Shown one piece after another: positions 4,070 to 63,140 of a stretch of 64,000 bases of DNA. Source of the stretch: Bacillus sp. F19. GTDB taxonomy: Bacteria > Bacillota > Bacilli > Bacillales > Bacillaceae. The notes below the pieces were generated by a model. The model saw only the letters and a list, made by a program, of their open reading frames with translations. It was not told the DNA's origin and searched no databases. Location of the stretch: positions 4,676,001 to 4,740,000 of the forward strand of contig CP085710.1 of assembly GCA_023823795.1 (NCBI GenBank). Reading direction: 5' to 3'. Positions within the stretch are counted from its first letter, which is position 1; the number at the start of each line of letters is the position of its first letter. The translations under genes and the position numbers were made by a program.

Positions 4070-4290
4070 GCGAGTTAGAATGGATTATGAGCGAGTTAGA
4101 GAACTGTAAGAGTTTGGAGCGGGGGTTCTGGCAAGCGGATCATTTGGATATCAGCAGGATACTGAATTTTTACGCACGGATGGCTGCCTTGCGAATTGAA
4201 CAATTGGTTTCGAGAGTTGAAACAGAAAATTCGCGAGCTGGCAGTCTGTTTTTGTGAATTGGATGGCGTTTTTTGTGAGTAAGGTCATCG
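4070..4290. repeat. Degenerate 21-bp periodic repeats, inverted relative of the 61-63 kb array
   Basis: GCGAGTTAG-type words start at 4070 and 4091, and TGCGAATTG-type words at 4190, 4211, 4232, 4253 and 4274, all exactly 21 bp apart. They are the reverse complement of the CAATTCGCAA/CAACTCGCAA words in the large array at 61340-63140. The minus-strand translation shows heptads such as QLANFLF, QLSKPIV and QFARQPS, similar in kind to those of the 61 kb array, but no ribosome site was seen. Confidence 0.75.
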
Positions 4291-4460
4291 GGGGATCCTG
4301 CTCGCAACAAAGATCCAATGGCCAAAGGCCGCTAGAAATAAGGCATTTCATGATAAAAATATGAAGATTTTCTCATGTGAAATCTTAAATTAACTCATCA
4401 AACTGCTTTTCCCGAAATTCAGAACCAATTTCCACGAAATGCAATCTATTTTATAAACAA

Positions 4461-4488
4461 AAAGACACCAGCTCTAAAAGCTGGTGTC
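4461..4488 (-). terminator. Terminator overlapping the yvoF stop codon
   Basis: GACACCAGCT (4464-4473) pairs with AGCTGGTGTC (4479-4488) as a 10-bp stem, followed on the minus strand by TTTTTG. The proximal arm encodes the last four residues (Asp-Thr-Ser-Phe) of the acyltransferase and its stop codon lies in the loop. Confidence 0.9.
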
Positions 4489-4989
4489 CCTCCGCAAATC
4501 CATCTCTTCCTTTGAAAAGATAACTCTCATCGGATTTCCGCCTACAAAGGCTCCTGCCGGAACATCTTTATGGACGAGCGTGCCAGCTGAAACAATGGCT
4601 CCGTCTCCGATTTCAACACCCGGCAGAACAGTGGAATTTGCACCGATCATGACTTCGTCACCGATGACAATGTCACCAAGTCTATACTCGCGTATCAAAT
4701 ATTCATGCGCAAGCAGTGTCGTGTTGTAGCCAATCACCGTATTCCGGCCAACTTTGATTTTTTCAGGAAACATCACATCCAGCATAACCATCAGGGCAAA
4801 TGATGTGTGCTTCCCCACCTTCATTCCGAGAAAATTCCGGTACATCCAATTTTTCATTGAAAGAAATGGGGTGTAGCGAGCCAGCTGAATGACAATGAAG
4901 TTGCGGACGACCTTCCAAAATGGGACTGTTTTGTAAACATGCCAAAGCGAATTCGGGCCTTTAACAGGGTATTTCGTTGTTTTTCTCAC
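4474..4989 (-). CDS. yvoF: Left-handed beta-helix (hexapeptide repeat) acyltransferase, YvoF family
   Basis: A 171-residue protein with hexapeptide-repeat turns from about residue 50 to 160 (for example IKVGRNTVIGYNTTLLA and IVIGDEVMIGANSTVLPGV), ending in the FVGGNPMRVI signature of maltose/galactoside-type O-acetyltransferases. The acceptor substrate is unknown. Start is GTG at 4989, two bases after the ppaX stop; MRKTTKYPVKGPNSLWHVY agrees with B. subtilis YvoF. The hprK-lgt-yvoD-ppaX-yvoF order is conserved in B. subtilis. Confidence 0.9.
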   Translation of the reverse strand: MRKTTKYPVKGPNSLWHVYKTVPFWKVVRNFIVIQLARYTPFLSMKNWMYRNFLGMKVGKHTSFALMVMLDVMFPEKIKVGRNTVIGYNTTLLAHEYLIREYRLGDIVIGDEVMIGANSTVLPGVEIGDGAIVSAGTLVHKDVPAGAFVGGNPMRVIFSKEEMDLRRDTSF

Positions 4990-4991
4990 AC

Positions 4992-5633
4992 TTATTCCGC
5001 TCCAAGCACGTTCAGTAAATCACTCATCTTGTTCAGCATGTAGTCAGGTTTAAAGCCTTCTAGATACTCCACGCCTTTTATTGTCCAAGCCACACCGGCC
5101 GTTTTGGTGCCTGCTGCTTTTCCGGAATCAATATCATGGTGGTTATCCCCGACCATAATCGCTTCCTCAGGAGAACTGTTCAGTTTTTCTAAAGCAAGCA
5201 GGACCGGTTCTGGGTGCGGCTTTGCGTTTTTAACATCATCAAGCGTCACGACCGTTTCAAAAAACTGGCCAAGACCCGTGAGCTTAAGACCCATATTCAC
5301 GGTATCACGTATTTTAGTTGTGACAATTCCAAGCTTATAGCCCTTTTCATGCAGTGCCTGGACTGTTTCATAAACCGTTTCAAATTGAGCAACCAATTGA
5401 TCGTGCTGATCATGATTAAACTTCCTGTAGGTGCTGATCATTTCATCAACACGAAGCGGGTCCATTTTTACAAACGTTTCATGAAGGGTAGGTCCGAGAA
5501 ACGGCAGGACGTCCTCGCGTCCATATTGGTTCGGATAATAAAGATTCAGCGTATGCAGGAAAGATTCTATGATTAAATCGTTGGTATTAATTAAAGTTCC
5601 ATCCAAATCAAACAGTACGGTGTTAATTCTCAT
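4992..5633 (-). CDS. ppaX: Pyrophosphatase PpaX (HAD superfamily)
   Basis: A 213-residue HAD phosphatase. Motif [12 protein letters not shown] is at residues 8-18, motif II VTTKIRD is central, and motif [21 protein letters not shown] lies near residue 170. In B. subtilis PpaX hydrolyses the pyrophosphate released when HprK/P dephosphorylates HPr-Ser-P, which fits its position in the hprK cluster. The ATG at 5633 has AAAGGAAG seven bases upstream and overlaps the yvoD stop by 11 bp; a TTG-initiated extension to 5663 is less likely. Confidence 0.93.
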
Positions 5634-6573
5634 AAGTTGCTTCCTTTCTTCTTGTATGTTCAAATCGGCTCCAAATCGCGCCTACTGCCATTGTCAGAAC
5701 GACCGCTGTTACAATCCTGATCAATAACAGCGGCAGAACCGGAATGCCTAGCGGCACGAAAATCAGGGTATCCTCCACCACAGCATGACAGGAGACGAGA
5801 AAAATAAAGGCGAGCGTTAAATCTTTATAGCTGACCCCGTCTTCTTCCGCTGCCTGAATCATGACCCCAGCTCCGTATGCAAGCCCTATCGTTAATCCGG
5901 CTACCATTGTCATGGAGGTGTTTTCATTCATTCCAAGCATCCTTGTAACAGGTGCCATCCATCTCGAAAAAACAGTTAAAAACCCTTTATCTTTAAGCAC
6001 CTGGATGATGATCATCAGCGGGATCACAATTAAGGCGAGCTGCACAATGCCAAGACCTGCTTTCTGAACAGCACTTAAACCAATTTCAACATAGCCGGCC
6101 GGATCGGCTGTATTCTTTGGAATAAACCCATACTGTGCCGTTTCCTGTCCGCCCTGCCATAGTAGATTGATCATAATAGCAGAGCTGACCGCAAGCCCAA
6201 TCCTTACAGCAAGAATGATCCAAAGCTTGATTCCCACCTTTGCAGCAACCGTTGATTCAATAATCAAGTTATGTGAGAACGATAGCATAACAGCTAAAAT
6301 AAACACTTCCTTAACAGATAGATCAAGCGTCAGGATGGCTGCTATCCCGGCATACAAGTTCAGCATGTTCCCAAGTACCAGCGGAATGGCGGCTTCACCT
6401 GATAAACCGAAAATTCCCATGACTGGCTGAATAAGCCTGATCAGCCACGGGAGTACCGGTGTGTGCTGAAGAAGACTCACAATCAAGGTAACCGGAAAAA
6501 TAACCTTGCCAAGCGTCCAAGTTGTTTGAAGCCCTGCCTGAAGTCCTTTTTTTAAACTATTAATCAGAAACAT
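5623..6573 (-). CDS. yvoD: Nucleoside recognition (Gate) domain membrane protein, YvoD family
   Basis: A 316-residue polytopic membrane protein with about eight hydrophobic segments and two internally similar halves, each resembling the Gate/nucleoside-recognition domain found also in SpoIIM-like and ferrous iron transport proteins. The first Gate half is near residues 40-150 ([25 protein letters not shown]), the second near 215-300 ([26 protein letters not shown]). Transported substrate is not known. It sits between lgt (5 bp upstream) and ppaX (overlapping). Confidence 0.87.
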
Positions 6574-6578
6574 CCCCC

Positions 6579-7397
6579 TTACTCGGCTGATTCTAAGTAT
6601 CTTTCATTTGAATATCCTTTGACTCTCCTGATAATTAATACTGCAACTGCAAGCGCAATTAATACTAGAGAAATAACTTGTGCAACCCGCAGCGATTCCG
6701 TCAGCATCAAGCTATCGGTACGCATACCTTCAATGAAAAAGCGTCCGACTGAATACCAGATGATGTAGGTGAGGAAAAGCTCTCCTCTGCGCAAATTGGC
6801 TTTTCTGAGAAGCATAAGTCCGGCAAAGCCTACAAGGCTCCACAAAGATTCATATAAAAACGTCGGGTGATAGTAAGCACCATTAATGTACATTTGATTG
6901 ATGATGAAATCGGGCAGAAACAATCCTTCTAAAAATTGACGGGTTACCTCGCCGCCATGGGCTTCTTGGTTAATAAAGTTTCCCCAGCGGCCGATTGCCT
7001 GCCCAAGGATTATGCTCGGAGCCCCAATATCAGCAATCTTCCAAAAAGAGAGACCTTTCACCTTTGCAAAGATATAGCCTGTTACAAATGCCCCAATTAA
7101 ACCGCCATGAATAGCCAGGCCTCCGTTCCAGATCTTCACAATTTCCCCCGGGTTTTGAGAGTAATAATCCCACTGAAAAATCACATAATAAATACGCGCA
7201 CAAATAATCGCGATTGGAATGGCAAACAGCACTAAATCTACAAACGTATCTTTATGAAGACCTCTGCGCTCACTTTCACGGACAGCAAGCCAAAGACCAA
7301 GCAAAGCTCCTATTCCGATAATCAAGCCATACCAATGCACCTGTATGGGTCCAAGCTCAAGAAAAATCGGATCGATAGGCGTAAAATTTTCCTCCAT
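6579..7397 (-). CDS. lgt: Prolipoprotein diacylglyceryl transferase
   Basis: Membrane enzyme of 272 residues that moves diacylglycerol from phosphatidylglycerol to the lipobox cysteine of prelipoproteins. The Lgt signature [14 protein letters not shown] is at residues 136-149, and [11 protein letters not shown] at 92-102. About seven membrane segments are visible. The ATG at 7397 is preceded by a GGGGGAATAG ribosome site. Its clients in this window include CccB. Order hprK-lgt is as in B. subtilis. Confidence 0.96.
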
Positions 7398-7422
7398 TGT
7401 CTCTATTCCCCCTTAATGATGA

Positions 7423-8358
7423 TTATGCGTCGTCATGCTCAGTATCTGTTATGACATCTGTTAATTTATTTGTAAATTGCTCAGCTGCATTCAGACCCAT
7501 GCGTTTTAATCTGAAGTTCATAGCCGCCACTTCAATGATGACCGCTAAGTTTCGTCCAGGGCGGACGGGAACGGTTAATTTAGGAACATCTGTGTCGATA
7601 ATTTTCATTTTCTCTTCATCAAGGCCCAATCTGTCATATTGCTTCTTAGGATCCCAGATTTCAAGATCAATAATGAGGGTAATCCGTTTATAGCTGCGGA
7701 CTGCGCCTGCTCCAAATAACGTCATTACATTTATGATGCCAAGTCCGCGGATTTCTAGAAGATGCTCAATTAAGTCTGGTGCATTTCCGACCAATGTATC
7801 CTGATCCTCCTGGCGGATCTCGACACAGTCATCTGCAACTAAACGATGGCCGCGCTTTACAAGTTCAAGAGCCGTTTCACTTTTACCGACTCCGCTTTTT
7901 CCGACAATCAGCACTCCTACGCCGTAAACGTCTACTAGAACGCCGTGAACTGCAGTAGTGGGAGCAAGCTTTCCTTCTAAAAAGTTAGTCAGATGACTTG
8001 ATAGGCGGGTTGTTTTTAAAGGTGAACGAAGCAGCGGAACAGACTTTTCTTCTGCAGAGTCTGTTAACTCCTGCGGGATCTCCATTTCGCGTGAAACGAT
8101 AATGGCCGGTGTTGAATCTGTACATAGCTGATCCATCCGGTTTCTCTTTTCCTCATCTGTCAGCTTTTGAAAAAACGTCAGCTCTGTTTTTCCGAGTATT
8201 TGCACGCGTTCTTTCGGGTAATATGTAAAAAAGCCAGCCATTTCAAGCCCTGGGCGGGACAAATCGCTTGTTGTGATGGGACGATTAATTCCTTCTTCCC
8301 CGCTGATCAGCTCTAAATGGAATTTTTCAATTAAATCTTTCGTTCGAACTTTTGCCAT
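7423..8358 (-). CDS. hprK: HPr kinase/phosphorylase
   Basis: A 311-residue bifunctional enzyme that phosphorylates HPr and Crh at Ser46 and reverses the reaction by phosphorolysis, controlling carbon catabolite repression via CcpA. Walker A GKSGVGKS is at residues 153-160, the conserved His at 139, and the HprK signature [11 protein letters not shown] at 201-211. The ATG at 8358 has AAGGAGGAG nine bases upstream; residues upstream in frame are not part of the family. First gene of the hprK-lgt-yvoD-ppaX-yvoF operon. Confidence 0.96.
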
Positions 8359-8566
8359 ACTTCTGCTCCTCCTTTTCCTTTCAAGGGGTACCAATAAAAT
8401 CCTCTCTTATTTTAGCACTTTTACCTTTTAAACGGAAACGGGAATCCTTTCTCATCAATTTAATCTTTCTTCCCTATTTTTTAAAAACATAGGACAATCA
8501 CCGCTACTTATCGCACATACAGCGATATATTAGTAAGGTAAAGACCATTTAATAGGAGGACTGTAC

Positions 8567-9235
8567 GTGAAGATTGCAATTGACGCCGGACACGGTTACA
8601 CAACATCCGGGAAAAGAACGGTAGACGGAATGAGAGAATATGAATTTAATCGTGCTGTAGCAAACGAAATGAGGGACCTTCTCGCAGGATATGAAAACGT
8701 TACAATCCTTTTCACTCATTCAGACACACGTGATGTTCCGCTGAAAGAGAGAACGGATAAGGCCAATGCCGCAAATGCAGATGTGTTTGTATCCATTCAT
8801 GCCAACGCATTTGGAAACGGCACGGTTTGGAATAATGTCAAGGGCATCGAAACATATGCTCACGACTCAAAACCCCAGGAATCCATTGCCCTTGCAGAAG
8901 CGGTTCAGAAAAAGCTGATTAAAAAAACAAAACGGGAGGACCGGGGGGTTAAGCTTGCCAACTTCCATGTCTTGCGGGAGTCTAAAATGACGGCTATTTT
9001 AATTGAGTGCGGCTTTATGACAAATCAAGAAGAAGCGAAGGCTTTAAAATCAGCTGCTTACCGCAAAATTTGTGCACAGGCAATTACTGAAGCACTCTCT
9101 GCTTTTTATAAGCTTAAGAAAAAGCCAGCTCCTACAGCACCTGAACCGGAAAAATTGTACAAAGTACAAGTCGGGGCTTTTAAAGAAAAAGAAAATGCCG
9201 TAGCCCTGGCCAATGAATTAAAAAATAAAGGGTAA
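8567..9235 (+). CDS. N-acetylmuramoyl-L-alanine amidase, CwlC-like, with a cut-short C-terminal repeat
   Basis: Amidase_3 domain at residues 1-182 with zinc ligands His9, Glu24 and His78 and catalytic Glu147 (IECGF). There is no signal peptide, as in the B. subtilis mother-cell lysis enzyme CwlC. Residues 197-222 form one CwlC-type SPOR-like repeat (LYKVQVGAFKEKENA...) that stops at Lys-Gly. The in-frame codons after the TAA read NVIVLYE and then stop again, exactly what the last strand of the repeat should look like, so a Tyr codon has probably become TAA. GTG start at 8567 with AGGAGGA six bases upstream. Confidence 0.88.
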   Translation: MKIAIDAGHGYTTSGKRTVDGMREYEFNRAVANEMRDLLAGYENVTILFTHSDTRDVPLKERTDKANAANADVFVSIHANAFGNGTVWNNVKGIETYAHDSKPQESIALAEAVQKKLIKKTKREDRGVKLANFHVLRESKMTAILIECGFMTNQEEAKALKSAAYRKICAQAITEALSAFYKLKKKPAPTAPEPEKLYKVQVGAFKEKENAVALANELKNKG

Positions 9236-9257
9236 AATGTCATCGTCCTTTACGAAT

Positions 9258-9303
9258 AAAAGAGTAGAGACAGTCTGCATCTTACAACTGTCTCTACTCT
9301 TTT
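9258..9303. terminator. Bidirectional terminator between convergent genes
   Basis: AAAAGAGTAGAGACAGT (9258-9274) pairs with ACTGTCTCTACTCTTTT (9287-9302) over 16-17 bp, with A and T tracts on both sides. It serves the amidase (plus) and the phosphoesterase (minus), whose stop codon lies inside the distal arm. Confidence 0.92.
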
Positions 9304-10196
9304 AATTTTAAAAGAAACCTCTCCTTTGGCAGAAGCTTCTTAGCCCTGAATTTATTCAAGTATGGCGAATAAGTATCAACCTGAATTTCCTTTTGACCTG
9401 CTTTAAAAAACAGAAGACGCATAAAGCCGTTGCCCCCATGCTTTTCAGCCTGATAATTCGCAAGCATCTGAAAAACTCTTTGCTCCTCAGAGATGCGGGT
9501 TTCTAAAAAACCCGTTCCGTAATAGTGACCGGATAAAACCAGTTTCACGTTTGGATTTTTCAAAACGACTTTCTGAAAAAGTTCTTCTCCTGCAGGACTT
9601 CTCTCATTTTTATAGTTCAAATAATCATGAAAAGCTAAAATCGCCGTGTGATTCCGGTAATCCTTCAATACCTTATTCATCCAATTAAGCGCACTGCTTT
9701 TTACATCCCAGCCCATATAAATCATGATATATGGCTGATTGTGGATCTTCAGAAGATCATAGTGGCCGCGATTATTTTCAAAAGAGCCGCCGTAAAACGG
9801 CTGCCGAATAAACCGATGATAGCCGAAATGATCTGTAAACACCTTATAAGGCTGTTCTTTATGAACCAAATCATGGTTCCCTGCCAAAACACCATATGGA
9901 ATCCTCGTCATATCAAGCATTTTCAGTATTTGATCGGTTCTTTCCCATTGCACATCATCATTAGGCCGATCCACAAGATCGCCTGTATGAAAAACATATT
10001 GAATGTTATATTTGTCCCGGTTTTCAATAATCCACTGTATTTGTTTAATCATGATTTCCGGATAGTTTTTTGCGTAATATTGAGTATCTGATAGCCAGAC
10101 AATCGTCGCATCCCCATCTTCAAATGGAAATTTTGCGTGCGCAGGAGTTGTAAATAGACAAAGCAGCAGGACTGCCGCAATAAAAGTTTTTTTCAT
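9294..10196 (-). CDS. Secreted calcineurin-like metallophosphoesterase
   Basis: A 300-residue protein with a signal peptide ([15 protein letters not shown]..., predicted cleavage after AHA near residue 21). Metallophosphoesterase motifs follow: WLSDTQYY near 33, FHTGDLVD near 70, LAGNHDLV near 105, FHDYLNY near 190 and LSGHYYG near 225. This is the set expected for a dinuclear-metal phosphoesterase acting outside the membrane; substrate unknown. Start placed at the ATG 10196 because the signal peptide begins there; upstream in-frame residues are polar leader. Confidence 0.85.
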
Positions 10197-10248
10197 AACC
10201 TTCACCCATTTTTTAGCGTACCCATATAGCGTGTCCTTATGTTCACGA

Positions 10249-10276: not shown

Positions 10277-10308
10277 ATATATGGAAACCAAAACAAGGAG
10301 ACGTACAT

Positions 10309-10698: not shown

Positions 10699-10700
10699 AA

Positions 10701-11636
10701 ACAGAAATTTTGGGCACTCGTTTCGGGATACACGCTATTCCAGGTACCCAAAACAGAAATTTGGGGCTCTCGTTTCGGGATACACGCTATTCCAGGTACC
10801 CAAAACAGAAATTTGGGGCACTCATTTCGGGATAAACGCTATTCCTGGTACCCAAAACTGAAAATTGGGGCACTCGTTTCAGGATAAACGCTATTCCTGG
10901 TACCCAAAACAGAAATTTGGGGCTCTCGTTTCGGGATAAACGTTATTCCTGGTACCCAAAACAGAAATTTGGGGTACTCGTTTCGGGATACACGCTATTC
11001 CTGGTACCCAAAACAGAAATTTGGGGCACTCATTTCGGGATAAACGCTATTCCTGGTACCCAAAACTGAAAATTGGGGCACTCGTTTCAGGATACACGCT
11101 ATTCCTGGTACCCAAAACAGAAATTTGGGGCACTCGTTTCGGGATAAACGCTATTCCTGGTACCCAAAACAGAAATTTGGGGCACTCATTTCAGGATAAA
11201 CGCTATTCCTGGTACCCAAAACAGAAATTTGGGGCACTCGTTTCGGGATAAACGCTATTCCAGGTGCCCAAAACAGAAAATTGGGGCACTCGTTTCAGGA
11301 TACACGCTATTCCTGGTACCCAAAACAGAAATTTGGGGCACTCATTTCGGGATAAACGCTATTTCAGGTGCCCAAAACAGAAATTTGGGGCACTCGTTTC
11401 AGGATAAACGCTATTCCTGGTACCCAAAACAAAAATTTGGGGCACTCATTTCGGGATAAACGCTATTCCAGGTACCCAAAACAGAAATTTGGGGCACTCG
11501 TTTCGGGATAAACGCTATTCCAGGTACCCAAAACAGAAATTTTGGGCACTCGTTTCAGGATAAACGCTCTTCCTGGTACCCAAAACAGAAATTTGGGGCA
11601 CTCGTTTCAGGATAAACGCTATTCCAGGTGCCCAAA
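10701..11636. repeat. Tandem array of eighteen 52-bp units (array A)
   Basis: The word GGCACTCGTTTC and its variants start at 10711 and recur every 52 bp (second unit at 10763) through 11597, giving eighteen head-to-tail units with no spacers and a few substitutions each. Every unit can form two hairpins: CGTTT-cgggat-AAACG and CCCAAA-acagaaa-TTTGGG, plus the self-complementary GGTACC. Because 52 is not a multiple of 3, open frames across it repeat only every 156 bp and are judged spurious. Follows mscL directly. Confidence 0.97.
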
Positions 11637-11716: not shown

Positions 11717-11718
11717 AC

Positions 11719-19170: not shown

Positions 19171-19285
19171 CAAGCGTGACTTTCCCAACCGATTCCGAGA
19201 CTTTCAAGCTTTATTCCAAGACTTTTAGAATGAATTCCGAGACTTTGCGGATTAATTCCGAGACTTTCCAAAATAATCCCGTACA
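19171..19285. repeat. 21-bp tandem repeats, ATTCCGAGACTTTC type
   Basis: The word ATTCCGAGACTTT and variants start at 19192, 19213, 19234, 19255 and (ATCCCG) 19276, each exactly 21 bp apart; a weaker unit precedes at 19171. The second half of each unit varies. The same word family recurs at 56124-56231. No gene found in this stretch. Confidence 0.9.
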
Positions 19286-26011: not shown

Positions 26012-26017
26012 AAACAT

Positions 26018-26048
26018 ACAAAGCCGGCCCCTTTCGAGCTGGCTTTGT
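26018..26048 (+). terminator. Hairpin after the ABC exporter operon
   Basis: ACAAAGCCGGC pairs with GCTGGCTTTGT (one G-U) across a 9-base loop, 7 bp after the stop. The following T run is poor, so termination may be inefficient. Confidence 0.6.
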
Positions 26049-26101
26049 TAGACTGTTATCGCCACTTCTTGAGCAGGTCTTTGTTTTTTCTGAAACCTGA
26101 T

Positions 26102-26206
26102 TTACTTTCCAAACCAAGGCCATTACTTGCAAGAATGGTCTTTTTACTAGCGAAAACCGCTTAAATACTTTCCGATTTGTCTGATTTACTTTCTTTTTTC
26201 CAGCTG
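26102..26206. repeat. 21-bp tandem repeats, TTACTTTCC type
   Basis: TTACTTTCC, TTACTTGCA, TTACTAGCG, ATACTTTCC and TTACTTTCT start at 26102, 26123, 26144, 26165 and 26186, exactly 21 bp apart; the remaining 12 bases of each unit vary. A looser relative is at 38538-38660. Confidence 0.85.
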
Positions 26207-26249
26207 CCTCCTAAAAAGATCACTCTTTTACTTGGTTGAACCCCCCAGT

Positions 26250-26279
26250 AAAAAAGACTGCAGGAATCTGTCCCGCAGT
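26250..26279 (-). terminator. Terminator of the siderophore-binding protein remnant
   Basis: Minus strand ACTGCGGG pairs with CCTGCAGT (one G-U) and is followed by CTTTTTT. Confidence 0.8.
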
Positions 26280-26286
26280 TTGCTTA

Positions 26287-26883
26287 TTATTGAATAGTTC
26301 CCGCTACTTCCTCCGTCATCCCCGCAACAGATTCCAAACCGCCGCCTGATAGGTACCAATAGTCAGGATCTAAATAAACAATCTTTCCATTTTTATAAGC
26401 TTTCGTATTTTTGACTAAGTCATTTTCCACTACCTGCTTCGCAGAAGATTCTCCGCCGGCAACTGCTCCTCTATCAATTACAAATAGGTAGTCCGGGTCT
26501 TTTTCTGCAATATATTCAAATGAAATGCTTTGTCCGTGTGTAGAAACCTCGATTTTTTCATCGGCTGCTGCGAACCCGAATTCGTCATGGATAATGCCGA
26601 AGCGTGAGCCTGCTCCGTTTGCACTTACCTTGCCGTCATTTGCAAGGATTATTAAGGCTTTTTCATCGCCTGCTGATGCTTTCTCTTTAAGCGCTTTGAT
26701 AGACTCTGCTACTTTCGCAAACTCTTTTTCTGCTTCTTCTTCCTTGCCGAAGATCTCACCTAATGTTGTTACATTTTCTTTAAATGATTCCATGTACTTC
26801 GTTGTATCCACGCCCATGAAAATGGTCGGAGCAATCTTGCTCATTTCTTCATAGGAATCCTGCTGTCTGCCTGAAATAATAAC
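26287..26883 (-). pseudogene. Iron-siderophore-binding protein (YclQ/FatB-like), 5' half lost
   Basis: About 199 codons encode the C-terminal lobe of a periplasmic-binding-fold lipoprotein like B. subtilis YclQ (petrobactin/catecholate uptake): words VIISGRQQDSYEEMSKIAP, GVDTTKYMESF, KISANG-like, STHGQSISFEYI, LFVIDRGAV and WYLSGGGLES are preserved. The reading frame meets a TAA at 26887-26889, where the sequence switches into a 52-bp repeat. Signal peptide, lipobox and roughly the first 110-130 residues are absent and do not reappear beyond the array. An internal ATG at 26844 could start a 185-residue cytosolic fragment, but it would not be exported. Confidence 0.87.
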
Positions 26884-27430
26884 ACATTATGTGCTGCAAA
26901 CTCGATTATGAAGCACTTATCTCGTGTTGGAGCCCACATAAAGTGCTGCAAACTCGATTATGAAGCACTTATCTCGTGTTAGAGCCCACATAAAGTGTTG
27001 CAAACTCGGTTATGAAGCACTTATCTCGTGTCGAAGAACACATTAGGTGCTGCAAACTCGATTATGAAGCACTTATCTCGTGTTGGAGCCCACATAAAGT
27101 GTTGCAAATTCGGTTATGAAGCACTTATCTCTTGTCGAAGAACACATTAGGTGCTGCAAACTCAATTATGAAGCACTTATCTCGTGTTGGAGCCCACATA
27201 AAGTGTTGCAAACTCCGATTATGAAGCACTTATCTCGTGTTGGAGCCCACATAAAGTGTTGCAAACTCCGATTATGAAGCACTTATCTCTTGTCGAAGAA
27301 CACATTAGGTGCTGCAAACTCAATTATGAAGCACTTATCTCGTGTCGAAGAACACATTAGGTGCTGCAAACTCGATTATGAAGCACTTATCTTATGCGGT
27401 AGCCCTTATTATGTGCTACAAACTCGGTTA
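26884..27430. repeat. Tandem array of about eleven 52-bp units (array D)
   Basis: GTGCTGCAAACTCGATTATG and variants start at 26891, 26943, 26995, 27047, 27099, 27151, 27203, 27256, 27309, 27361 and 27413; the period is 52 bp, 53 where an extra C is present. The last copies are degenerate. Two tail types mix: TTGGAGCCCACATAAA and TCGAAGAACACATTAG. Each unit has GTGCT...AGCAC and CACTTAT...ATAAAGTG inverted repeats. No spacers, so not CRISPR. Confidence 0.96.
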
Positions 27431-27666
27431 TGGAATCACCTCATTACTTTGGTAAAGATAATCCTTCTCATTTAATCCTAAAAAAAAGAAGCTCAATCTA
27501 ATAATTATCTGAAGAATAAGAAAACGTATGGAAAATGTTCACAAAGATGCGACATCTTTTTGTCAAATGCTCCCGACTATTACTTTCCAGTACAAATAAC
27601 TGTTAATATGTTAGATAATCAAGTATGTTAGTTGAGTTTGGATTTAAAAAGAAAAGGAGAATTGTA
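27431..27666. other. Region between array D and the heme O synthase
   Basis: AT-rich leader. A short hairpin AAGATG-cga-CATCTT followed by TTT lies near 27546-27562. No confident promoter or additional gene was identified. Confidence 0.4.
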
Positions 27667-54162: not shown

Positions 54163-55629
54163 TTACAAAGTCACTCTTTTCGCCTCAGCATTCATCATTT
54201 GGATATGCTTTTTGGCACGAATCATCGCTTCTGTTTTACCGTAATGAAAAAATCGCACATCTCCGCTTGGGTGCTTCGCACTTCTGCCGACACGGCCGGC
54301 AATTTGCACCAGCGCACTCTCTGTAAAAACATTGTCCTCTGCTCCCAGCACAGCAACATCAGAATTAGGAATGGTGACTCCTCTTTCTAAAATAGTGGTG
54401 GTAATAATAATGGGAATCACTCCATCTCGGAAGCGCTGAACCTTTTCTTTACGAGCAGGGTCTTCTGCAAAAACCCCTTCTATTAAAGGATCCTGCTTTT
54501 TTAATAGAGCCGTCGTTTCTTCTAATAACGGTATGGATGGAACGAATAGGAAGGCTTGTTTTTTTGATTCCAAATGGGAGGAAATCCATTCTTGAACGTT
54601 TAATGGGAGTTTGTCTTTTTGAAGTGCCCTTTTATAATTCCCGCACCATGAAAAGACAGGTAAAGGAAGCGGATGACCGTGGTATCTTTGAGGGATTTTG
54701 ACTTGATTGGCAATCTTTTTCTTCAGGCTGCTGGAAGGTGTTGCCGTTAAATAGATGAGGGAGCTTTGTTCTTTTCTTGCCCGTCCCGCAGCAAACTGGA
54801 GACTTTGATCAGCTGAGTAAGGAAATGCATCTACTTCATCTATGACCATTAAATCAAACGTTTGTTCAAAACGGAGAAGCTGGTGAGTCGTGGATATGGT
54901 GAGGTTAGCCTGCTTATATCGGTCTTCGCTCCCTCCATATAGAGCAGCAATTTCCGCTTGAGGAAAAACGGACTGAAACCTTGGGGCAAGTTCCAGGACA
55001 ACATCCATGCGCGGCGTTGCGATGCAGACTTGCTTGTTCTCTAATAAAGCTTTTTCAATTCCTTTGAAAAGCATTTCTGTTTTCCCTGCACCGCATACAG
55101 CCCAAATCAGCAAATCGCTTTGATTTTTCAGCGCATGCAGCATTCGGTCTGACCCTTTTTGCTGCTCTCTTGATAGCTTTCCTTCCCAGTGCATCGCCTT
55201 AAATTTTTTATGCTGAATGTGTGATTCAGGACCAGCCCACCTAAGTAATGGCGTGCATTCACTGACTCTTCCCATAAGAATGCAAGAGCGGCAATACGAG
55301 CAATGTTCACCGCACCTTGCACACTTAAAGGAGCCGATCAAGCTTTGATCACTGTTGTTGCAGCGATTGCATCTAAGCCGTTTATTTGTTTTCTCCAAGC
55401 CATACGCATACTCAATATAGCCGTTTTCATAATGCCGGTGTATGATTTCTAACGGAAATGGAATTTCATCTATGAGCAGTTTTCTTCCCTGAAGGTGTTT
55501 TTGGAGGTCATTGGAATATGTAAACGATGGATTGATTTGGCTAACACGGAGGTGATGCTTTGAAATAGGCAATCCTTCTTTGTTATTCTCTGTGGGTTTC
55601 AACAATCCGTTATGTATGTGAAATTTCAT
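54163..55629 (-). CDS. comFA: Competence DEAD/DEXH helicase ComFA
   Basis: A 488-residue ATPase thought to help pull single-stranded DNA into the cell. N-terminal four-cysteine zinc finger (CNRC...CARC...CSYC..C at about 88-118), Walker A AVCGAGKTE near 180, DEVD box (VIDEVDAF) near 262, motif III LTATPS, and motif VI QIAGRVGRS. ATG 55629 overlaps the upstream 58-aa gene by 4 bp (ATGA). With comFB and comFC forms the comF operon. Confidence 0.95.
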   Translation of the reverse strand: MKFHIHNGLLKPTENNKEGLPISKHHLRVSQINPSFTYSNDLQKHLQGRKLLIDEIPFPLEIIHRHYENGYIEYAYGLEKTNKRLRCNRCNNSDQSLIGSFKCARCGEHCSYCRSCILMGRVSECTPLLRWAGPESHIQHKKFKAMHWEGKLSREQQKGSDRMLHALKNQSDLLIWAVCGAGKTEMLFKGIEKALLENKQVCIATPRMDVVLELAPRFQSVFPQAEIAALYGGSEDRYKQANLTISTTHQLLRFEQTFDLMVIDEVDAFPYSADQSLQFAAGRARKEQSSLIYLTATPSSSLKKKIANQVKIPQRYHGHPLPLPVFSWCGNYKRALQKDKLPLNVQEWISSHLESKKQAFLFVPSIPLLEETTALLKKQDPLIEGVFAEDPARKEKVQRFRDGVIPIIITTTILERGVTIPNSDVAVLGAEDNVFTESALVQIAGRVGRSAKHPSGDVRFFHYGKTEAMIRAKKHIQMMNAEAKRVTL

Positions 55630-55867: not shown

Positions 55868-56123
55868 GTCTTGTCACATTAATTACAAAATGCGGAAAAC
55901 AAATTTTCGGTGCGAATTTCGTTATTTTTTCGTTGATTTTTTAAAATTTGTTGTTTCGACAAGCGAAATAGTATGGAGGTCTCCTATCAAGGAAAAGGCA
56001 CAGAAATCGGAAGCCGTTGAGCCTTGTTTTTGAAGAGAATTAATTATCAATTCTTCATTTTGGCTTTCAATAAAATTATTTTCTCGTGTGGGACACTTTT
56101 ATGAGATCTAAGATTTCCCAAAA

Positions 56124-56231
56124 TAATTCCCGGACTTTCCGATTCCAAGACTTTTCCTATTAATTACGAGACTTTCCGCGTTAATTCCTAGACTTTCCGC
56201 GTTAATTCCGAGACTTTTAGAAATCATTCCT
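56124..56231. repeat. 21-bp tandem repeats, ATTCCGAGACTTTC type
   Basis: ATTCCAAGACTTTT, ATTACGAGACTTTC, ATTCCTAGACTTTC, ATTCCGAGACTTTT and ATTCC start at 56142, 56163, 56184, 56205 and 56226, exactly 21 bp apart; the first unit (56125) is shortened. Same word family and orientation as 19171-19285. The rest of the 55909-56123 gap shows no gene. Confidence 0.92.
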
Positions 56232-56305: not shown

Positions 56306-56309
56306 CCTC

Positions 56310-57152
56310 TTATCTCTTATACCACCCAAGTCCTATTGCTCCTTCACCTAAATGCGTGCCGATAACCGGTCCGAAATAGCTGATGGAGTATTCTACATGG
56401 GGATACTTTGCTTCAAGTTCTTCTTTCATTTGCTGAGCTTCATCCGGGCGATTGGCATGAATGATGGCCGCACGCATCGGGTCTCCAGCGCCAGCGACTT
56501 CATCGAAAAGCTCATAAATGCGGTTGATTGCTTTTTTGCGTGTGCGGATTTTTTCAAAAGGGACGATCAGTTTGTCAACAAAATGCAGAATTGGCTTTAC
56601 CTGCAGCAGGCTGCCGATCAGTGCCTGTGCGCCGCTTAAACGTCCGCCGCGCTGAAGATGTGATAAATCATCTACCATGAAATAAGCTTGAATTGATTTT
56701 TTCACTTCGTTTAGACGTGTCATTATTTCCTCAGGTTTAATGCCTTCTGCAGCAAGCTCCGCTGCCTCAATGGCATAAAAACCCTGGACCATGCAGCTGA
56801 CTTCCGAATCGAATGCATAAACATCAATGTTATCGACCATTTGACCTGCTGACACAGCTCCGTTGTAGGTACCACTGATTCCACTTGATAAATGAACACT
56901 GATCACTGCATCATATTCCTTAGAAAGTTCTTCAAATAATTCAACAAATTTGCCAGCAGACGGCTGTGAAGTAGTCGGAAGCTCGCCTCTGTTTCTGACT
57001 TCTTCGTAAAAGTCTGCAGCGGTTATTTCAACTTCCTCCCGGTATACTTCCCCGCCAAAAATCACGCTCAGCGGAATCATCTGAATATTTAACCGCTCAC
57101 GTGTTTCTTTTGGAATATAAGCTGTGCTATCCGTAACTATTGCCGTTTTCAT
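56310..57152 (-). CDS. degV: DegV-family fatty-acid-binding protein
   Basis: A 280-residue protein that binds a long-chain fatty acid (FakB-type fold): N-terminal MKTAIVTDSTAYIP, PTTSQPSAGKFVELFE near 60, HLSSGISGTYNGA near 85-97 and HxGEGAIGLGW-like THLGEGAIGLGWYKR at the end. In firmicutes such proteins present fatty acid to FakA. ATG 57152 with GGAAGG. It follows degU through a terminator and a dispersed element. Confidence 0.92.
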   Translation of the reverse strand: MKTAIVTDSTAYIPKETRERLNIQMIPLSVIFGGEVYREEVEITAADFYEEVRNRGELPTTSQPSAGKFVELFEELSKEYDAVISVHLSSGISGTYNGAVSAGQMVDNIDVYAFDSEVSCMVQGFYAIEAAELAAEGIKPEEIMTRLNEVKKSIQAYFMVDDLSHLQRGGRLSGAQALIGSLLQVKPILHFVDKLIVPFEKIRTRKKAINRIYELFDEVAGAGDPMRAAIIHANRPDEAQQMKEELEAKYPHVEYSISYFGPVIGTHLGEGAIGLGWYKR

Positions 57153-57257
57153 ATATGTACCTTCCTTGTAATCGACTTCTCTTAATGTACTTTTCATTCT
57201 ATAAGATAATGCTTCTAATTTCATTACTTTGTATGTAAATAAATGGTGAAGAAATAA

Positions 57258-57403: not shown

Positions 57404-57486
57404 TTTTAAATAAATCCCTGCTATCTACTATAACAGGGATTTGCGAGATATAGATATGCAACTTTTAAAAAGCGCCGTGAAAAAGC

Positions 57487-57509
57487 AAAAAACCTGCCGA
57501 AGCAGGTTT
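57487..57509 (-). terminator. Terminator of degSU
   Basis: AAACCTGC-ttcg-GCAGGTTT on the minus strand with a stable UUCG tetraloop, then TTTTG; overlaps the degU stop. Confidence 0.93.
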
Positions 57510-58192
57510 TATCGCACTTCCACCCAGCCGTTTTTGATAGCAACGACTACTGCTTGAGTACGGTCATTTACGTTCATTTTTTGAAGAATGTTGCTTACGT
57601 GATTCTTAACTGTTTTTTCACTGATGAAAAGGGCTTCGCCGATGCCGCGGTTGCTTTTTCCGTCCGCAAGCATTTGCAGCACTTCACATTCACGGCGAGT
57701 TAAAATATGTAATGGGCGTCTGATTTCAGTCGTGATGGTTGTTGTGCCCCCGCCTGATCCGCTTGTAGCAAGACGTCTGAATTCATTCACAAGGTTATGT
57801 GTTACTTTAGGATGCAAGTATGACCCGCCATCAGAAACGACTTTTACAGCTTCGATCAGTGTGTCTGCATCCATTTCTTTTAACAAATAGCCGCGAGCGC
57901 CTGTTTTCAAAGCGTGAGTTACATAGTTCTCATCGTCGTGAATCGACAGGATGATTACTTTTGTTTCTGGATTTGATTCCACCAGCTGTTTTGTAGCTTC
58001 CACGCCGTTTACTTTCGGCATGTTGATGTCCATGATGACAACATCAGGCTTGCTGTCTTCAACGATGGCTAATGCATCTTCGCCGTCATCGCCTTCTGAT
58101 ACAACTTCAAAGCTTGGTTCGAAATCCAAGATTCGTTTAACGCCTTCTCGGAATAATTGGTGATCATCGATAATCGCAATTCTTGTCTTCAT
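57509..58192 (-). CDS. degU: Response regulator DegU
   Basis: A 227-residue NarL/FixJ-type regulator: receiver domain with Asp9-Asp10 and phospho-acceptor Asp55 ([10 protein letters not shown]), Lys104-region LLKEMDAD, and a LuxR-type HTH near 160-222 ([19 protein letters not shown]-like, [17 protein letters not shown]). In B. subtilis it controls exoprotease, competence, motility and biofilm genes; SwrA, present here, modulates it. ATG 58192 with GGGAGG. Confidence 0.96.
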
Positions 58193-58263
58193 GCATACGC
58201 CTCCCATTTTTTATTCTAGTCTATTACACGGTGATGTCGTCAATATGCCTTTGGTCTATTTTT

Positions 58264-59421
58264 TCAGACATTGAGAGGCACCTGTATCATAATGAATGTC
58301 CCAAGACCTATTTTAGAATCGATTGTGATTCGGCCGTTTAAGAGCTCTACACGCTCTCTCATCCCAAGGAGACCGAATGATTTCTTCTGATTTTGCTTCA
58401 TTTCTCTTGTATCGAAGCCTTTTCCGTTATCTTTGATCATCAGAATAATATTATTCTGATTCACCTCAACTTTAACCTGAATCTCACGGGCTTCGGCGTG
58501 CTTTAAAGCATTCGTGACTGCTTCCTGAGCCAGTCTGAATAACGCTACTTCAAAGCGGGGCGGAAGCCTGTTTTCTTCAAAATCGCCGAGGCTTGAAAAT
58601 AAGATACGGGTTTTCCCGTTATACTCTTCGATTGTATAAAGGTACTTTCTGAGGGTTGGTATGAGTCCAAGGTCATCCAGTGCCATTGGCCTTAAATCAT
58701 AAATAATCCTCCGAACCTCATACAGGGCATTGCGGACATTTTGGCGAAGGCTGCGGATTTCTTTAAAACCTTCGTCAGACCCCCGCTCTCTGAAGATCCG
58801 TTCAATCAGCTCTGAACGCATCATCACGTTCGCAAGCATCTGAGCAGGCCCATCGTGAATTTCCCTTGAAACGCGCTTGCGCTCCTCTTCCTGTGCTTCA
58901 ATGATCCTTAGACCAAAAACCTGCTTCTGCTGTGCATCCTCAATCAGCATGCCGACCTGACGAAGATCCTGATGCAGATAATTCAAGACAACAGATATTT
59001 GGCTCACAAGCACCTCTGCCCGTTCAATCGTTTCCTGAAGCCCAAGCAGCCTTCTCTCTAAATCATCCCGCCGATCTCTGAGCTGCTTCTCTTTTTGCTG
59101 AAGCATGGTGAGCTCCACCTGAAGCTTGTGGGCCTTCTCATAGGCTTCCCTGATCTCTTCCTCGCTGAATTGCTTAAAGTGCTTGCTCACCTCAGACAGA
59201 CGCTTTCTGGCAAACCTGGCGTGAACCTCAAGCTTGTCTCCCTGTTCAATCACATCATTAACCTGTATCTTAATTTGTTTTAATTCTTCTACAAGCTCTT
59301 CATATTGCTGACGGGACTGCTCGCCGATCTTAAAAATTTCGCCTTTGCTGCCGTCAACCGTCGCTACCATCTTATCCAGAATTTGATCAAGCACCTTGCA
59401 GTCAAGCTTCTTGGAGTCCAC
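58264..59421 (-). CDS. degS: Sensor histidine kinase DegS
   Basis: A 385-residue cytosolic kinase: long N-terminal coiled-coil sensor domain (residues 25-165), HisKA_3 phospho-acceptor His189 (SREIHDGPAQML), and a HATPase domain 280-385 (EAVTNALKHA, IKDNGKGF, FGLLGMRERVELLNG). No membrane segment, as in B. subtilis DegS. GTG start at 59421 with AGGAGGAG. 71 bp upstream of degU in one operon. Confidence 0.96.
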   Translation of the reverse strand: MDSKKLDCKVLDQILDKMVATVDGSKGEIFKIGEQSRQQYEELVEELKQIKIQVNDVIEQGDKLEVHARFARKRLSEVSKHFKQFSEEEIREAYEKAHKLQVELTMLQQKEKQLRDRRDDLERRLLGLQETIERAEVLVSQISVVLNYLHQDLRQVGMLIEDAQQKQVFGLRIIEAQEEERKRVSREIHDGPAQMLANVMMRSELIERIFRERGSDEGFKEIRSLRQNVRNALYEVRRIIYDLRPMALDDLGLIPTLRKYLYTIEEYNGKTRILFSSLGDFEENRLPPRFEVALFRLAQEAVTNALKHAEAREIQVKVEVNQNNIILMIKDNGKGFDTREMKQNQKKSFGLLGMRERVELLNGRITIDSKIGLGTFIMIQVPLNV

Positions 59422-59483
59422 TATATCTCCTCCACTAATAATGGGTTAAAATAAACTTCACACAATATTCCACAATATAATGA

Positions 59484-59512
59484 TTGAAGTGAAAATTTTG
59501 TCGCTTTATAAT
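59484..59512 (+). promoter_or_regulatory. Sigma-A promoter of yvyE
   Basis: TTGAAG (59484-59489), 17 bp, TATAAT (59507-59512), 61 bp before the start codon; divergent from degS. Confidence 0.75.
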
Positions 59513-59573
59513 ATAAGAATGTGCATTTATAATTCCATTTGCCTTCTATAAGCTTGCAAGGAGGTGTACAAGC

Positions 59574-60209
59574 ATGCTTTCACACTATTATACCGTAAAA
59601 GGATACGGAGAGCATGAAATATCCATTCAGAAATCACGTTTTATTTGTTATATAAACCGCGCAACAACCGAAGAAGAGGCGCAAGCCTTCATTCAGCAGA
59701 TAAAAAAGAAGCATTGGGATGCGACACATAACTGCTCAGCCTATTTAATCGGCGAACACGATCTGATTCAAAAAGCAAATGACGACGGAGAACCAAGCGG
59801 AACCGCCGGCGTGCCTATCCTTGAAGTGCTTAAAAAGAGACAATTAAAAGATACAGTTGCCGTTGTCACCCGTTATTTTGGAGGCATAAAGCTCGGCGCA
59901 GGCGGACTGATCCGCGCATACGGGAGCTCAACCTCTGAAGCCCTGAATGCAATCGGCATTGTCGAGTGTAAGTTAACGCGCGTGATGCATACTAAGATTG
60001 ATTATACATGGCTTGGAAAAGTGGAAAATGAACTCAGAAATTCACACTATCAGCTTAACGAAATTCATTACCTTGATAACGTTGAGGTGGAGACGTTTGT
60101 CGAAGAAGGCCAAAAGGATCAATTCATAGAATGGATGACAGAGCTGACAAATGGCCAGGGTGAAATCATCGAAGGTACTCAAATCTATTTAGAACAGCCA
60201 AAAATTTAA
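59574..60209 (+). CDS. yvyE: YigZ/IMPACT family protein YvyE
   Basis: A 211-residue protein with the UPF0029/IMPACT N-terminal domain (IQKSRFICYINRATTEEEA, DDGEPSGTAGVPIL, VVTRYFGGIKLGAGGLIRAYG) and the DUF1949 C-terminal domain. The family is linked to translation control, exact role unclear. AAGGAGG site. Same position between degS and the LCP gene as in B. subtilis. Confidence 0.92.
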   Translation: MLSHYYTVKGYGEHEISIQKSRFICYINRATTEEEAQAFIQQIKKKHWDATHNCSAYLIGEHDLIQKANDDGEPSGTAGVPILEVLKKRQLKDTVAVVTRYFGGIKLGAGGLIRAYGSSTSEALNAIGIVECKLTRVMHTKIDYTWLGKVENELRNSHYQLNEIHYLDNVEVETFVEEGQKDQFIEWMTELTNGQGEIIEGTQIYLEQPKI

Positions 60210-60228
60210 ACGGACAGAGGAGTAATTT

Positions 60229-61230
60229 ATGAATAGGCAGGAAGTTAAGAAAATAAAGAAAAAGAAGAAAAAAAGCGTTTTTAAACGAATATTATTTTTG
60301 TTCTTCATACTATTTCTATTAGTTGGCGGATATGCAGGCTATGTCTTTTATCAAACCTATCAGGCCGCTAACAATTCATATGATGATTTAGGAAGAGATA
60401 AATCCAAATTGCGCGATGAGGCCGTGAGCATCTCTAACGATCCTGTTTCCATTTTGTTAATGGGGGTTGAAAATTACTCAAGCGGAGGATCCGGCGGACG
60501 GGCTGATACACTTATGGTAGCTACTTTTAATCCAAAGGATCAGACGATGAAATTATTAAGTCTTCCGCGCGATACACGCGTAGAAATCCCAGGTAAAGAA
60601 ACAAAGCGCAAAATCAATTCTGCCTATTCAACTGGCGGAAAAGAACTGACAATTGAAACGGTCGAAGGTTTCTTGGATATTCCAATTGATTATTATGCAA
60701 CAGTTAACTTCGAAGGCTTTAAAAACATCATCGATATCATAGGCGGCATTACAGTGGACGTTCCTTTTGATTTCACACAAAACAGTGATGATCCAAAAGC
60801 CGAAAAACTTGAGTTTACTGAAGGACCAATGAAAATGGATGGAAGATACGCTTTGGCCTATGCAAGAATGAGGCTGCAGGATCCTAACAATGACATTGGC
60901 AGAAATGAAAGACAGCAGCAGGTTGTAAAAGAAGTCATCAATGAGATTGTATCAGCAGGCACTCTTCTGAAGGTTGATCAGCTGACAAGTGAAATTGGAA
61001 AGAACGTAGAAACCAACATGACAATGTCAGAGCTATTAGGTTTTTATAAAAAGTACAACAACTTTAACACGGATAAGATTGAAACTGTGAAGCTTGAAGG
61101 CGTAGGAGAATACATCGGCAACGCCGCTTACTGGATTCCAGATGATACAAGCTTAGAAGAAGTCAAAGACGAGTTAAAAGACCATTTAGAGCTTAAATCA
61201 GCTGAAGACGATAACTTAGACAGCAATTAA
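60229..61230 (+). CDS. tagV: LytR-CpsA-Psr family wall teichoic acid ligase
   Basis: A 333-residue membrane-anchored transferase: very basic N-terminus (KKIKKKKKK), one membrane helix about 19-42, and the extracellular LCP domain about 72-240 with RADTLMVATF, SLPRDTRVEIPG, INSAYS, YARMRLQDPNNDIGRNERQQQV. LCP enzymes move lipid-linked wall polymers to peptidoglycan. Following yvyE and facing tagO, it corresponds to B. subtilis yvhJ (tagV); the paralogue name is inference. Confidence 0.88.
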   Translation: MNRQEVKKIKKKKKKSVFKRILFLFFILFLLVGGYAGYVFYQTYQAANNSYDDLGRDKSKLRDEAVSISNDPVSILLMGVENYSSGGSGGRADTLMVATFNPKDQTMKLLSLPRDTRVEIPGKETKRKINSAYSTGGKELTIETVEGFLDIPIDYYATVNFEGFKNIIDIIGGITVDVPFDFTQNSDDPKAEKLEFTEGPMKMDGRYALAYARMRLQDPNNDIGRNERQQQVVKEVINEIVSAGTLLKVDQLTSEIGKNVETNMTMSELLGFYKKYNNFNTDKIETVKLEGVGEYIGNAAYWIPDDTSLEEVKDELKDHLELKSAEDDNLDSN

Positions 61231-61236
61231 TACCGA

Positions 61237-61275
61237 AAAGCTCCAGCCTTACATGGCTGGAGCTTTCTTTATTTT
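61237..61275 (+). terminator. Terminator of the LCP gene
   Basis: AAAGCTCCAGCC (61237-61248) pairs with GGCTGGAGCTTT (61255-61266), followed by CTTTATTTT. Confidence 0.93.
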
Positions 61276-61339
61276 ATAACAAAGCTTTAGCGAAGAGAGA
61301 ACAGTAAACGACTTTCCTTGCTTTAATGAAAATTTGGCG

Positions 61340-63140
61340 TCAATCCACGCAGAGCACCCAACTCGCAGAAAATGACATTCATTTAGCAAAAAACCTTATC
61401 CAATTCGCAAGAATCCCTGTTCAATTCGCAAAAACGGGCTTCCAACTCGCAAACCTTAATTTCAACGGATAAACTGCATTAAAAATGCCTGTTTTGGCTA
61501 TTTTATCGATGCTGCTGCTGAAAACGAATGATTTTTAGCTGTGTAGGCATCTCCCTCTCGTATATCAGAGCACGCAACTAGCAAAAAACCTTATCCAATT
61601 CGCAAGAATCCATGTTCAATTCGCAAAAACGGGCTTCCAACTCGCAAACCTTACTTTCAACGGATAAACTGCATTAAAATGCCTGTTTTGGCTATTTTAT
61701 CGATGCTGCTGCTGAAAACGAATGATTTTCCGCTGTGTGTAGGCATCTCCCTCCCGTTTCAGAGCACGCAACTAGCAAAAAACGACATTCATTTAGCAAA
61801 AAACCTTATCCAATTCGCAAGAATCCCTGTTCAACTCGCAGAAATGGGCTTCCAACTCGCAAACCTTACTTTCAACGGATAAACTGCATTAAAAATGCCT
61901 GTTTTGGCTATTTTATCGATGTTGCTGCTGAAAACGAATGATTTTCCGCTGTGTGTAGGCATCTCCCTCTCGTTTCAGAGCACGCAACTAGCAAAAAACC
62001 TTATCCAATTCGCAAGAATCCATGTTCAATTCGCAAAAACGGGCTTCCAACTCGCAAACCTTACTTTCAACGGATAAACTGCATTAAAAATGCCTGTTTT
62101 GGCTATTTTATCGATGCTGCTGCTGAAAACGAATGATTTTCCGCTGTGTAGGCATCTCCCTCTCGTATATCAGAGCACGCAACTAGCAAAAAACGACATT
62201 CATTTAGCAAAAAACCTTATCCAATTCGCAAGAATCCATGTTCAATTCGCAAAAACGGGCTTCCAACTCGCAAACCTTACTTTCAACGGATAAAATCCCT
62301 GTTCAACTCGCAGAAATGGGCTTCCAACTCGCAAACCTTACTTTCAACGGATAAACTGCATTAAAAATGCCTGTTTTGGCTATTTTATCGATGTTGCTGC
62401 TGAAAACGAATGATTTTCCGCTGTGTGTAGGCATCTCCCTCTCGTTTCAGAGCACGCAACTAGCAAAAAACGACATTCATTTAGCAAAAAACCTTATCCA
62501 ATTCGCAAGAATCCCTGTTTAACTTGCAAAAATAGGTTTCCAACTCGCAAACCTTACTTTCAACGGATAAACTGCATTAAAATGCCTGTTTTGGCTATTT
62601 TATCGATGCTGCTGCTGAAAACGAATGATTTTCCGCTGTGTGTAGGCATCTCCCTCTCGTTTCAGAGCACGCAACTAGCAAAAAACCTTATCCAATTCGC
62701 AAGAATCCATGTTCAACTCGCAAAAATGGGCTTCCAACTCGCAAACCTTACTTTCAACGGATAAACTGCATTAAAATGCCTGTTTTGGCTATTTTATCGA
62801 TGTTGCTGCTGAAAACGAATGATTTTCCGTTATGTGTAGGCATCTCCCTCTCGTTTCAGATCACATAACTAGCAATAACCGACATTCATTTAGCAAAAAA
62901 CCTTATCCAATTCGCAAGAATCCATGTTCAACTCACAAAAATGGGCTTCCAACTCGCAAACCTTGATTTCAACGGATATACTGGATTAAAATGCCTGTGT
63001 TGACTATTTTATCGATGCCGCTGTGTAGACATCTACCTCTCGTTTCAGAGTACACAACTAGCAAAAAACCTTATCCAACTCGCAAGAATCCCTGTTCAAC
63101 TCTCAGAAATGGGCTTCCAACTCGCTTAAGCTCCATTTCC
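61340..63140. repeat. Complex array: eight long units built from 21-bp sub-repeats
   Basis: The core word TGCCTGTTTTGGCTATTTTA starts at 61486, 61680, 61896, 62091, 62368, 62583, 62777 and (diverged) 62992; spacings are 194, 216, 195, 277, 215, 194 and 215 bp. Between cores lie 21-bp sub-repeats of the form TAGCAA or TCGCAA plus about 15 variable bases; the ~21-bp length difference equals loss of one sub-repeat (GACATTCATTTAGCAAAAAA), and the 277-bp unit has an extra 62 bp. Heptad-like open frames across it lack ribosome sites. Confidence 0.95.

Follow-up and report, generated by a model that had tools for sequence, protein, structure and literature searches.

The 64,000-nucleotide window of Bacillus sp. 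F19 analysed here (contig CP085710.1, positions 4,676,001 to 4,740,000; G000:C1:4676001-4740000), from a two-contig genome of 5.59 Mb, carries several intergenic arrays built on a short word repeated at 21-bp intervals. A sequence-only reading had proposed that unrelated repeat families share this exact period, and reading the spacings both by regular expression and from the sequence itself bore out the period at each place that it named. The two arrays of 52 bp that it reported were likewise found. The features are given below in window coordinates, with a fold score that is computed over four consecutive copies for every period between 13 and 35 and is listed here for period 21.

4070..4275, minus strand: degenerate family D array (CAAYTCGCA in the gene-sense direction), fold score 1.20
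19178..19281, minus strand: family C array (AAAGTCTCGGAAT in the gene-sense direction), fold score 2.21
26090..26206, minus strand: family A array (GGAAAGTAAAT in the gene-sense direction), fold score 0.96
56120..56231, minus strand: family C array, ATTCCGAGAC-type words at 56142, 56163, 56184 and 56205, fold score 2.16
61237..61266, plus strand: terminator-like hairpin (consensus match) after a LytR-type gene, directly before the 61-63 kb array
61350..63125, plus strand: composite family D array of 27 words between convergent genes, fold score 1.85
63160..63181, minus strand: terminator-like hairpin (consensus match) of the convergent gene on the far side of the 61-63 kb array
10699..11636, strand not assigned: 52-bp tandem array, 18.0 copies
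26883..27432, strand not assigned: 52-bp tandem array, 10.5 copies, with a 156-bp super-unit

The 4.2-kb array lies between the end of a gene at 4474-4989 (minus strand) and hisZ (2602-3885, minus strand), with GCGAGTTAG/TGCGAATTG words at 4070 and 4091 and then from 4190 onward. The 19-kb array, with ATTCCGAGAC-type words at 19192, 19213, 19234 and 19255, occupies the space from the end of prfC to the start of uvrB. At 26 kb, TTACTTTCC-type words at 26102, 26123, 26144, 26165 and 26186 stand in exact 21-bp register between convergent genes, and despite this register the fold score of the region at period 21 is under the 99% shuffle quantile of 1.02. The 56-kb array, flanked by a DegV-type gene (56310-57224, minus strand) and a helicase-type gene (54163-55629, minus strand), has an extra word at 56126 that is 16 bp off and out of register; the regular-expression match at 56143 begins one base within the first word, at 56142. 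Successive distances between the 27 CAAYTYGC words of the 61-63 kb array are exactly 21 bp in 13 of 26 cases and 42 bp in four more, and the 21-bp steps are nested in super-units of ~195-216 bp. Reverse-complementing TGCGAATTG at 4190 gives CAATTCGCA, a word of this array, and the 4.2-kb and 61-63 kb arrays are members of one family on opposite strands, so the description of the families as unrelated fails in part.

The period was then scored in intergenic regions, taken as everything outside open reading frames (ORFs) of at least 120 amino acids, a crude gene call, and compared with the 99.8% quantile of shuffled sequence. In 57 stretches of 20 kb from the same genome, sampled more densely in parts of the chromosome and excluding two stretches placed on known matches, 37 of 523 intergenic regions exceeded this quantile, compared with 1.3 expected per shuffle. 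The period was 21 in 23 of these regions, 26 (which can be half of 52) in five, 20 in three and 22 in none, with one region each at 16, 17, 19, 24, 27 and 32. Among 33 loci of relatives, 25 of 319 regions passed (0.7 expected), 11 at period 21, 10 at 25 and one each at 14, 15, 24 and 30. Of coding regions, 31 of 894 passed in the same genome, 26 of them at multiples of three and eight at 21, and 59 of 592 passed in relatives, 56 at multiples of three and 25 at 27.

The sequence-only reading had suggested comparing lag 21 with neighbouring lags, and the answer depended on what was counted. Raw 7-mer matches in 37 stretches were raised alike at lags 19 to 22 (47, 55, 63 and 43 matches at 19, 20, 21 and 22, against 16-20 in shuffles), and they were replaced by the four-copy fold score; the sharp peak at 21 emerges when regions are counted instead of k-mers. 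The same raw counts reached 129 at lag 42 and 500 at lag 52. A very strong signal at lags of 122-123 bp (729 and 223 matches, against 12-17 in shuffles) also appeared in these 37 stretches.

Four main word families were defined, A (GGMAAGTAAAT), B (CGGCTAAATAAAT), C (AAAGTCTCGGAAT) and D (CAAYTCGCA), whose word-to-word distances peak at 21, 42 and 63 bp. ATTCCGAGACTTT occurs 105 times in the genome, compared with once for its reversed control, and CAAYTCGCA pairs with a gap of 10-12 nt occur 37 times, compared with none for the control. In a scan of 81 genomes of the family, seven congeners had 63 AAGTAAA pairs (47 for the reversed control), 56 of which were exactly 21 bp apart when 20-22 was allowed. 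GGCTAA pairs were prominent in G076, G077 and G078 (30, 51 and 9, against 5, 6 and 6) and slightly raised in Bacillus sp. F19 (9 against 5) and in its relative G050 (12 against 5). Other words recur at period 21 in relatives, namely TTCGCGGATAAA (L083), TCGGTAGTAAA (L076, L080 and L092), GGTTGAATT (L074) and ACGAGAATG (L088); the observation that the consensus differs while the period does not thus holds both here and in relatives. The arrays sit in regions without ORFs of at least 120 amino acids, although some are crossed by shorter chance ORFs.

Word and spacer change in orthologous arrays

Each 21-bp repeat consists of a conserved word of ~10-16 bp and a spacer with little conservation, such that within one array words agree and spacers differ. 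We compared orthologous arrays from two relatives, G045 and G050, whose long alignments are mostly 93-98% identical, and defined the word columns of each unit solely by the other units of the same array (leave-one-out). Of 32 alignment records in array regions, 26 had usable columns; regions with fold scores of 0.8-1.02 were left out of both the array and control sets. The rate of change in words is about half that in spacers: 62 of 1051 word positions were substituted, compared with 138 of 1101 spacer positions (p=1e-7, by Fisher tests that assume independent sites, with some loci counted with both relatives and large D arrays that may pair non-orthologous copies), and words were lower in 22 of the 26 alignments and higher in 4. 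The contrast was little or absent in three controls on non-array sequence, in which word-like and remaining columns were substituted at 120/2211 and 774/11737 for period 21 (p=0.042), 127/1892 and 673/9378 for period 17 (p=0.49), and 131/2266 and 880/13653 for period 24 (p=0.24).

Since misaligned units could mimic such a contrast, it was tested in alignments with no gap in the array or within 30 nt of it. In these 14 alignments, 33 of 417 word positions and 55 of 423 spacer positions were substituted (p=0.018; words lower in 7, higher in 3), while allowing gaps of at most 2 nt gave 22 alignments with 45/711 and 104/798 (p=1.3e-5; words lower in 14, higher in 4). We read the contrast as probable purifying selection on the words, with concerted exchange between units as a less likely source. 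The conserved columns also have a weak skew of A over T (16 vs 6 in the arrays of this genome, 178 vs 151 in controls, 4 vs 2 in relatives).

The arrays also differ between relatives in ways that speak for neutral minisatellite turnover, in which 21-bp units would be gained and lost by slippage or recombination, nothing would read them, and the period would come from the amplifying machinery. Compared with its counterparts in G045 and G050, the 56-kb array is shorter by exactly one 21-bp unit, and the 4.2-kb array is present in G050 and wholly absent from G045. Among 15 indels of at least 8 nt around 21-bp arrays in 19 locus-relative pairs, two were of 21 nt and one of 42 nt; the other 12 ranged from 8 to 725 nt and included no multiples of 21. 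The 61-63 kb region measures 1966 bp here, 1428 bp in G045 and 1357 bp in G050, and the region of the 18-copy 52-bp array 1071, 146 and 197 bp, respectively. Array-bearing regions are fast-evolving as well, with 1815 of 16016 positions (11.3%) substituted in the flanks within the same regions. We nonetheless consider neutral turnover unlikely, because words change half as fast as spacers even with leave-one-out columns, because fresh neutral copies would not be expected to show agreeing words and differing spacers, and because the words are directed along genes (see below). As a separate observation, the genes flanking window positions 26012-26286 lie ~10.4 kb further apart in both G045 and G050.

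Direction and placement relative to genes

Direction was assessed in 29 arrays of this genome with at least three in-register A-D words, a sample partly picked at known C and D matches; the neighbouring genes are codirectional for 20 of these arrays, convergent for 7 and divergent for 2. Words were sense to the codirectional genes in 16 of the 20 (two-sided p=0.012), with the direction of each family fixed after the data were seen. At two of the exceptions, 4115746 and 4627487, a plus-strand gene or remnant missed by the ORF call adjoins the array; reassigning them gives 18 of 20 (p=0.0004), a count that is not blind, as only exceptions were reread. The genus g4 (G076-G078) shares the word GGCTAA with family B, and for its arrays the direction was set in advance. 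Among 18 g4 arrays chosen from the match list, all 11 codirectional ones were sense, and 4 were convergent and 3 divergent. Merging like-looking G076 and G077 loci, a matter of judgement, leaves ~8 of the 11 as distinct (p=0.0078), and one pair (L198/L208) was classed as codirectional in one of the two genomes but as divergent in the other. The strand bias that the sequence-only reading had proposed looking for is present along codirectional genes in both sets, although in this genome it is largely confounded with replication. In g4 (loci L193-L210), super-units of ~102 bp overlie the 21-bp steps.

A terminator-like site lies within 90 nt before the first word in 19 of the 29 arrays, as called by a predictor that gives false positives and that, at the 19-kb array, chose one next to the first word. 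When the whole region was considered, at least one terminator-like site was present for 25 of 26 arrays and 218 of 274 control windows, a weak difference (p=0.037). Neither an avoidance of divergent spaces (5/40 vs 120/573, p=0.23) nor an excess in convergent spaces (9/40 vs 78/573, p=0.15) was significant. At L054 (6111-6466), a pair of TPP riboswitches point towards each other, and the one on the plus strand precedes a broken plus-strand gene beside a family C array.

That most codirectional arrays are sense would also suit a function at the RNA level, with sense words in readthrough or 3' RNA serving as sites for RNA-binding proteins or as a sponge. The array at 4628609-4629285 sits between a 70-amino-acid ORF and a terminator-like hairpin and is therefore probably inside a transcript, 52-nt satellites of B. 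coagulans are reportedly transcribed (PMC8625621), and a small-RNA role for Bacillus repeats has been proposed by Subirana and Messeguer (PMC8161180). We regard this function as improbable, since two turns of B-DNA have no obvious meaning for single-stranded RNA, the arrays do not fold, a terminator-like site precedes most window arrays (as partly judged by eye), and D arrays also occur between divergent genes (678743 and 4897801). Folding z-scores over 54 arrays were -0.22 in sense and -0.09 in antisense, indicating no structure, compared with -1.11 for 60 controls, which fits DNA or unstructured RNA. Rfam gave no match in the window at gathering score and seven matches in six loci, none of them to an array. 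Marks oriented by replication, with words pointing with the fork and matching genes only because most genes do, are quite unlikely: 24 of the 29 arrays point with replication as judged by GC skew, including the one at 670611, which is antisense to its genes, but 4115746 and 4627487 follow a plus-strand gene against replication, L193 in G077 (GC skew +0.063) follows lagging-strand genes, and 4737231 and 4939225 oppose replication.

A published repeat class and other known systems

The sequence-only reading knew of no named family with these properties, but Bacillus repeats of constant size, 20-21 and 52 nt, and variable sequence have been published. Subirana and Messeguer (2021) surveyed 176 Bacillus genomes and described 4029 tandem repeats, of which 781 measured 20-21 nt and 1886 measured 51-53 nt; they noted that 20-21 nt is two helical turns, and proposed an involvement of nucleoid proteins or small RNAs (PMC8161180). 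The 21-bp arrays are members of this class as its main text presents it: they are non-coding, 20-21 nt in length and of several sequence families per genome (here A-D), they keep a short characteristic sequence, and they are species-specific and found in several Bacillus lineages. The signal TCGCGG of B. weihaiensis (PMC8161180) resembles the TTCGCGGATAAA words of L083. All families accordingly match one described class without sharing a sequence family, and in that sense the database match that the sequence-only reading had named as a refutation was obtained. What delimits the published class is repeat size and regularity, with SATFIND requiring four or more repeats and a minimum of 60% of equal length. 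Our fold score evaluates four copies at a single period, and degenerate arrays and steps of 19 bp are included here; SATFIND might not accept the weak arrays at 4.2 and 26 kb. The 52-bp window arrays match the non-coding 51-53 nt repeats with no difference seen, and 52- and 21-nt repeats co-occur in some species of that study as well (PMC8161180). The words terminator, orientation, downstream, intergenic and selection have no occurrence in its main text, supplements aside, and relative to that text, the constraint on words in orthologues and the direction along genes are additions to the class.

Other repeat systems resemble the arrays in part. As in CRISPR arrays, constant and variable segments alternate; unlike them, the unit is 21 bp, many dispersed loci share one word and Rfam has no match in the window (cas genes were not searched for). 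REP elements are repeats outside genes, often following them, with a palindromic, hairpin-forming unit, whereas the arrays are not palindromic hairpins of the REP/BIME kind (folding z -0.22). Plasmid iterons are direct protein sites about two turns apart, bound by a replication initiator beside the rep gene, whereas the arrays are dispersed over the chromosome and not at one origin.

Repeats of other periods were seen in relatives. Arrays with a 25-bp period, in which a palindromic word (TGTACCAGGTACA, TGAGCCAGGCTCA or TGTGCCAGGAACA) alternates with a variable spacer of ~11 bp, occur in Rossellomorea and near relatives (L064, L066, L068, L069, L071, L077, L078 and L081), several directly after a DegV-type gene, and some of their words reappear in the arms of terminator hairpins (L067). 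Near-perfect 15-bp repeats, CCTGTCCCTCTCGAA and CCTGTCCCCAATGAA, lie upstream of a DegV-type gene at L080 (9785) and L076 (9853), in Lederbergia and Bacillus sp. IITD106.

Candidate recognition sites between transcription units

A word that resists change, a two-turn spacing, a direction mostly along genes and gain or loss by 21 bp are most simply explained as a row of recognition sites. In this view a sequence-specific factor would bind the word, and the 21-bp spacing, equal to two turns of B-DNA, would align adjacent sites along the same face of the helix and let bound copies sit next to one another. As the arrays have a direction and occupy the spaces between transcription units, their job would most likely be at unit ends, for example limiting readthrough as a directional nucleoprotein barrier or organiser. 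We hold this explanation, two-turn-phased recognition sites for a putative factor, likely at the ends of transcription units, tentatively and at somewhat short of an even chance. Of the two mechanisms offered by the sequence-only reading, a helically phased protein-binding platform or a common amplifier, the platform is tentatively favoured, with support from the slower change of words.

Several observations weigh against recognition sites of this kind. Word constraint is moderate, with 5.9% of word positions substituted compared with 5.3% in non-array intergenic flanks. Four of the 20 codirectional arrays are antisense, and those at 670611 and 1296365 remain so after rereading. With a looser criterion, sense and antisense regions number 5:3 for family A, 8:1 for B, 7:3 for C, 1:1 for D and 0:3 for E (GATAA words). 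Gene direction is largely confounded with the replication direction described above. Family C words (ATTCCGAG) form 94 pairs at 21 bp and also 31 at 19 bp, which is off helical phase. With several word families in one genome, either several readers or a single loose one would be required. Nearness to a terminator, a location that the sequence-only reading had proposed checking, was rejected as a property of the arrays, at 9 of 26 arrays and 73 of 274 control windows, not above control; in relatives it was seen at 4 of 10 arrays and 24 of 138 controls and is not claimed.

A wider proposal, which the sequence comparisons make conceivable and which we consider doubtful, is that the arrays may be directional platforms between transcription units for an undescribed, fast-diversifying family of binding factors, in which the word would vary from lineage to lineage at a constant two-turn spacing. 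The puzzle of constant size without sequence conservation, for which the main text of the published study names no constraint other than size (PMC8161180), gains slower word change, direction along genes and turnover by 21 bp. A reader of these arrays would be expected to recognise the word, to depend on the spacing and perhaps on the direction, and to act between transcription units.

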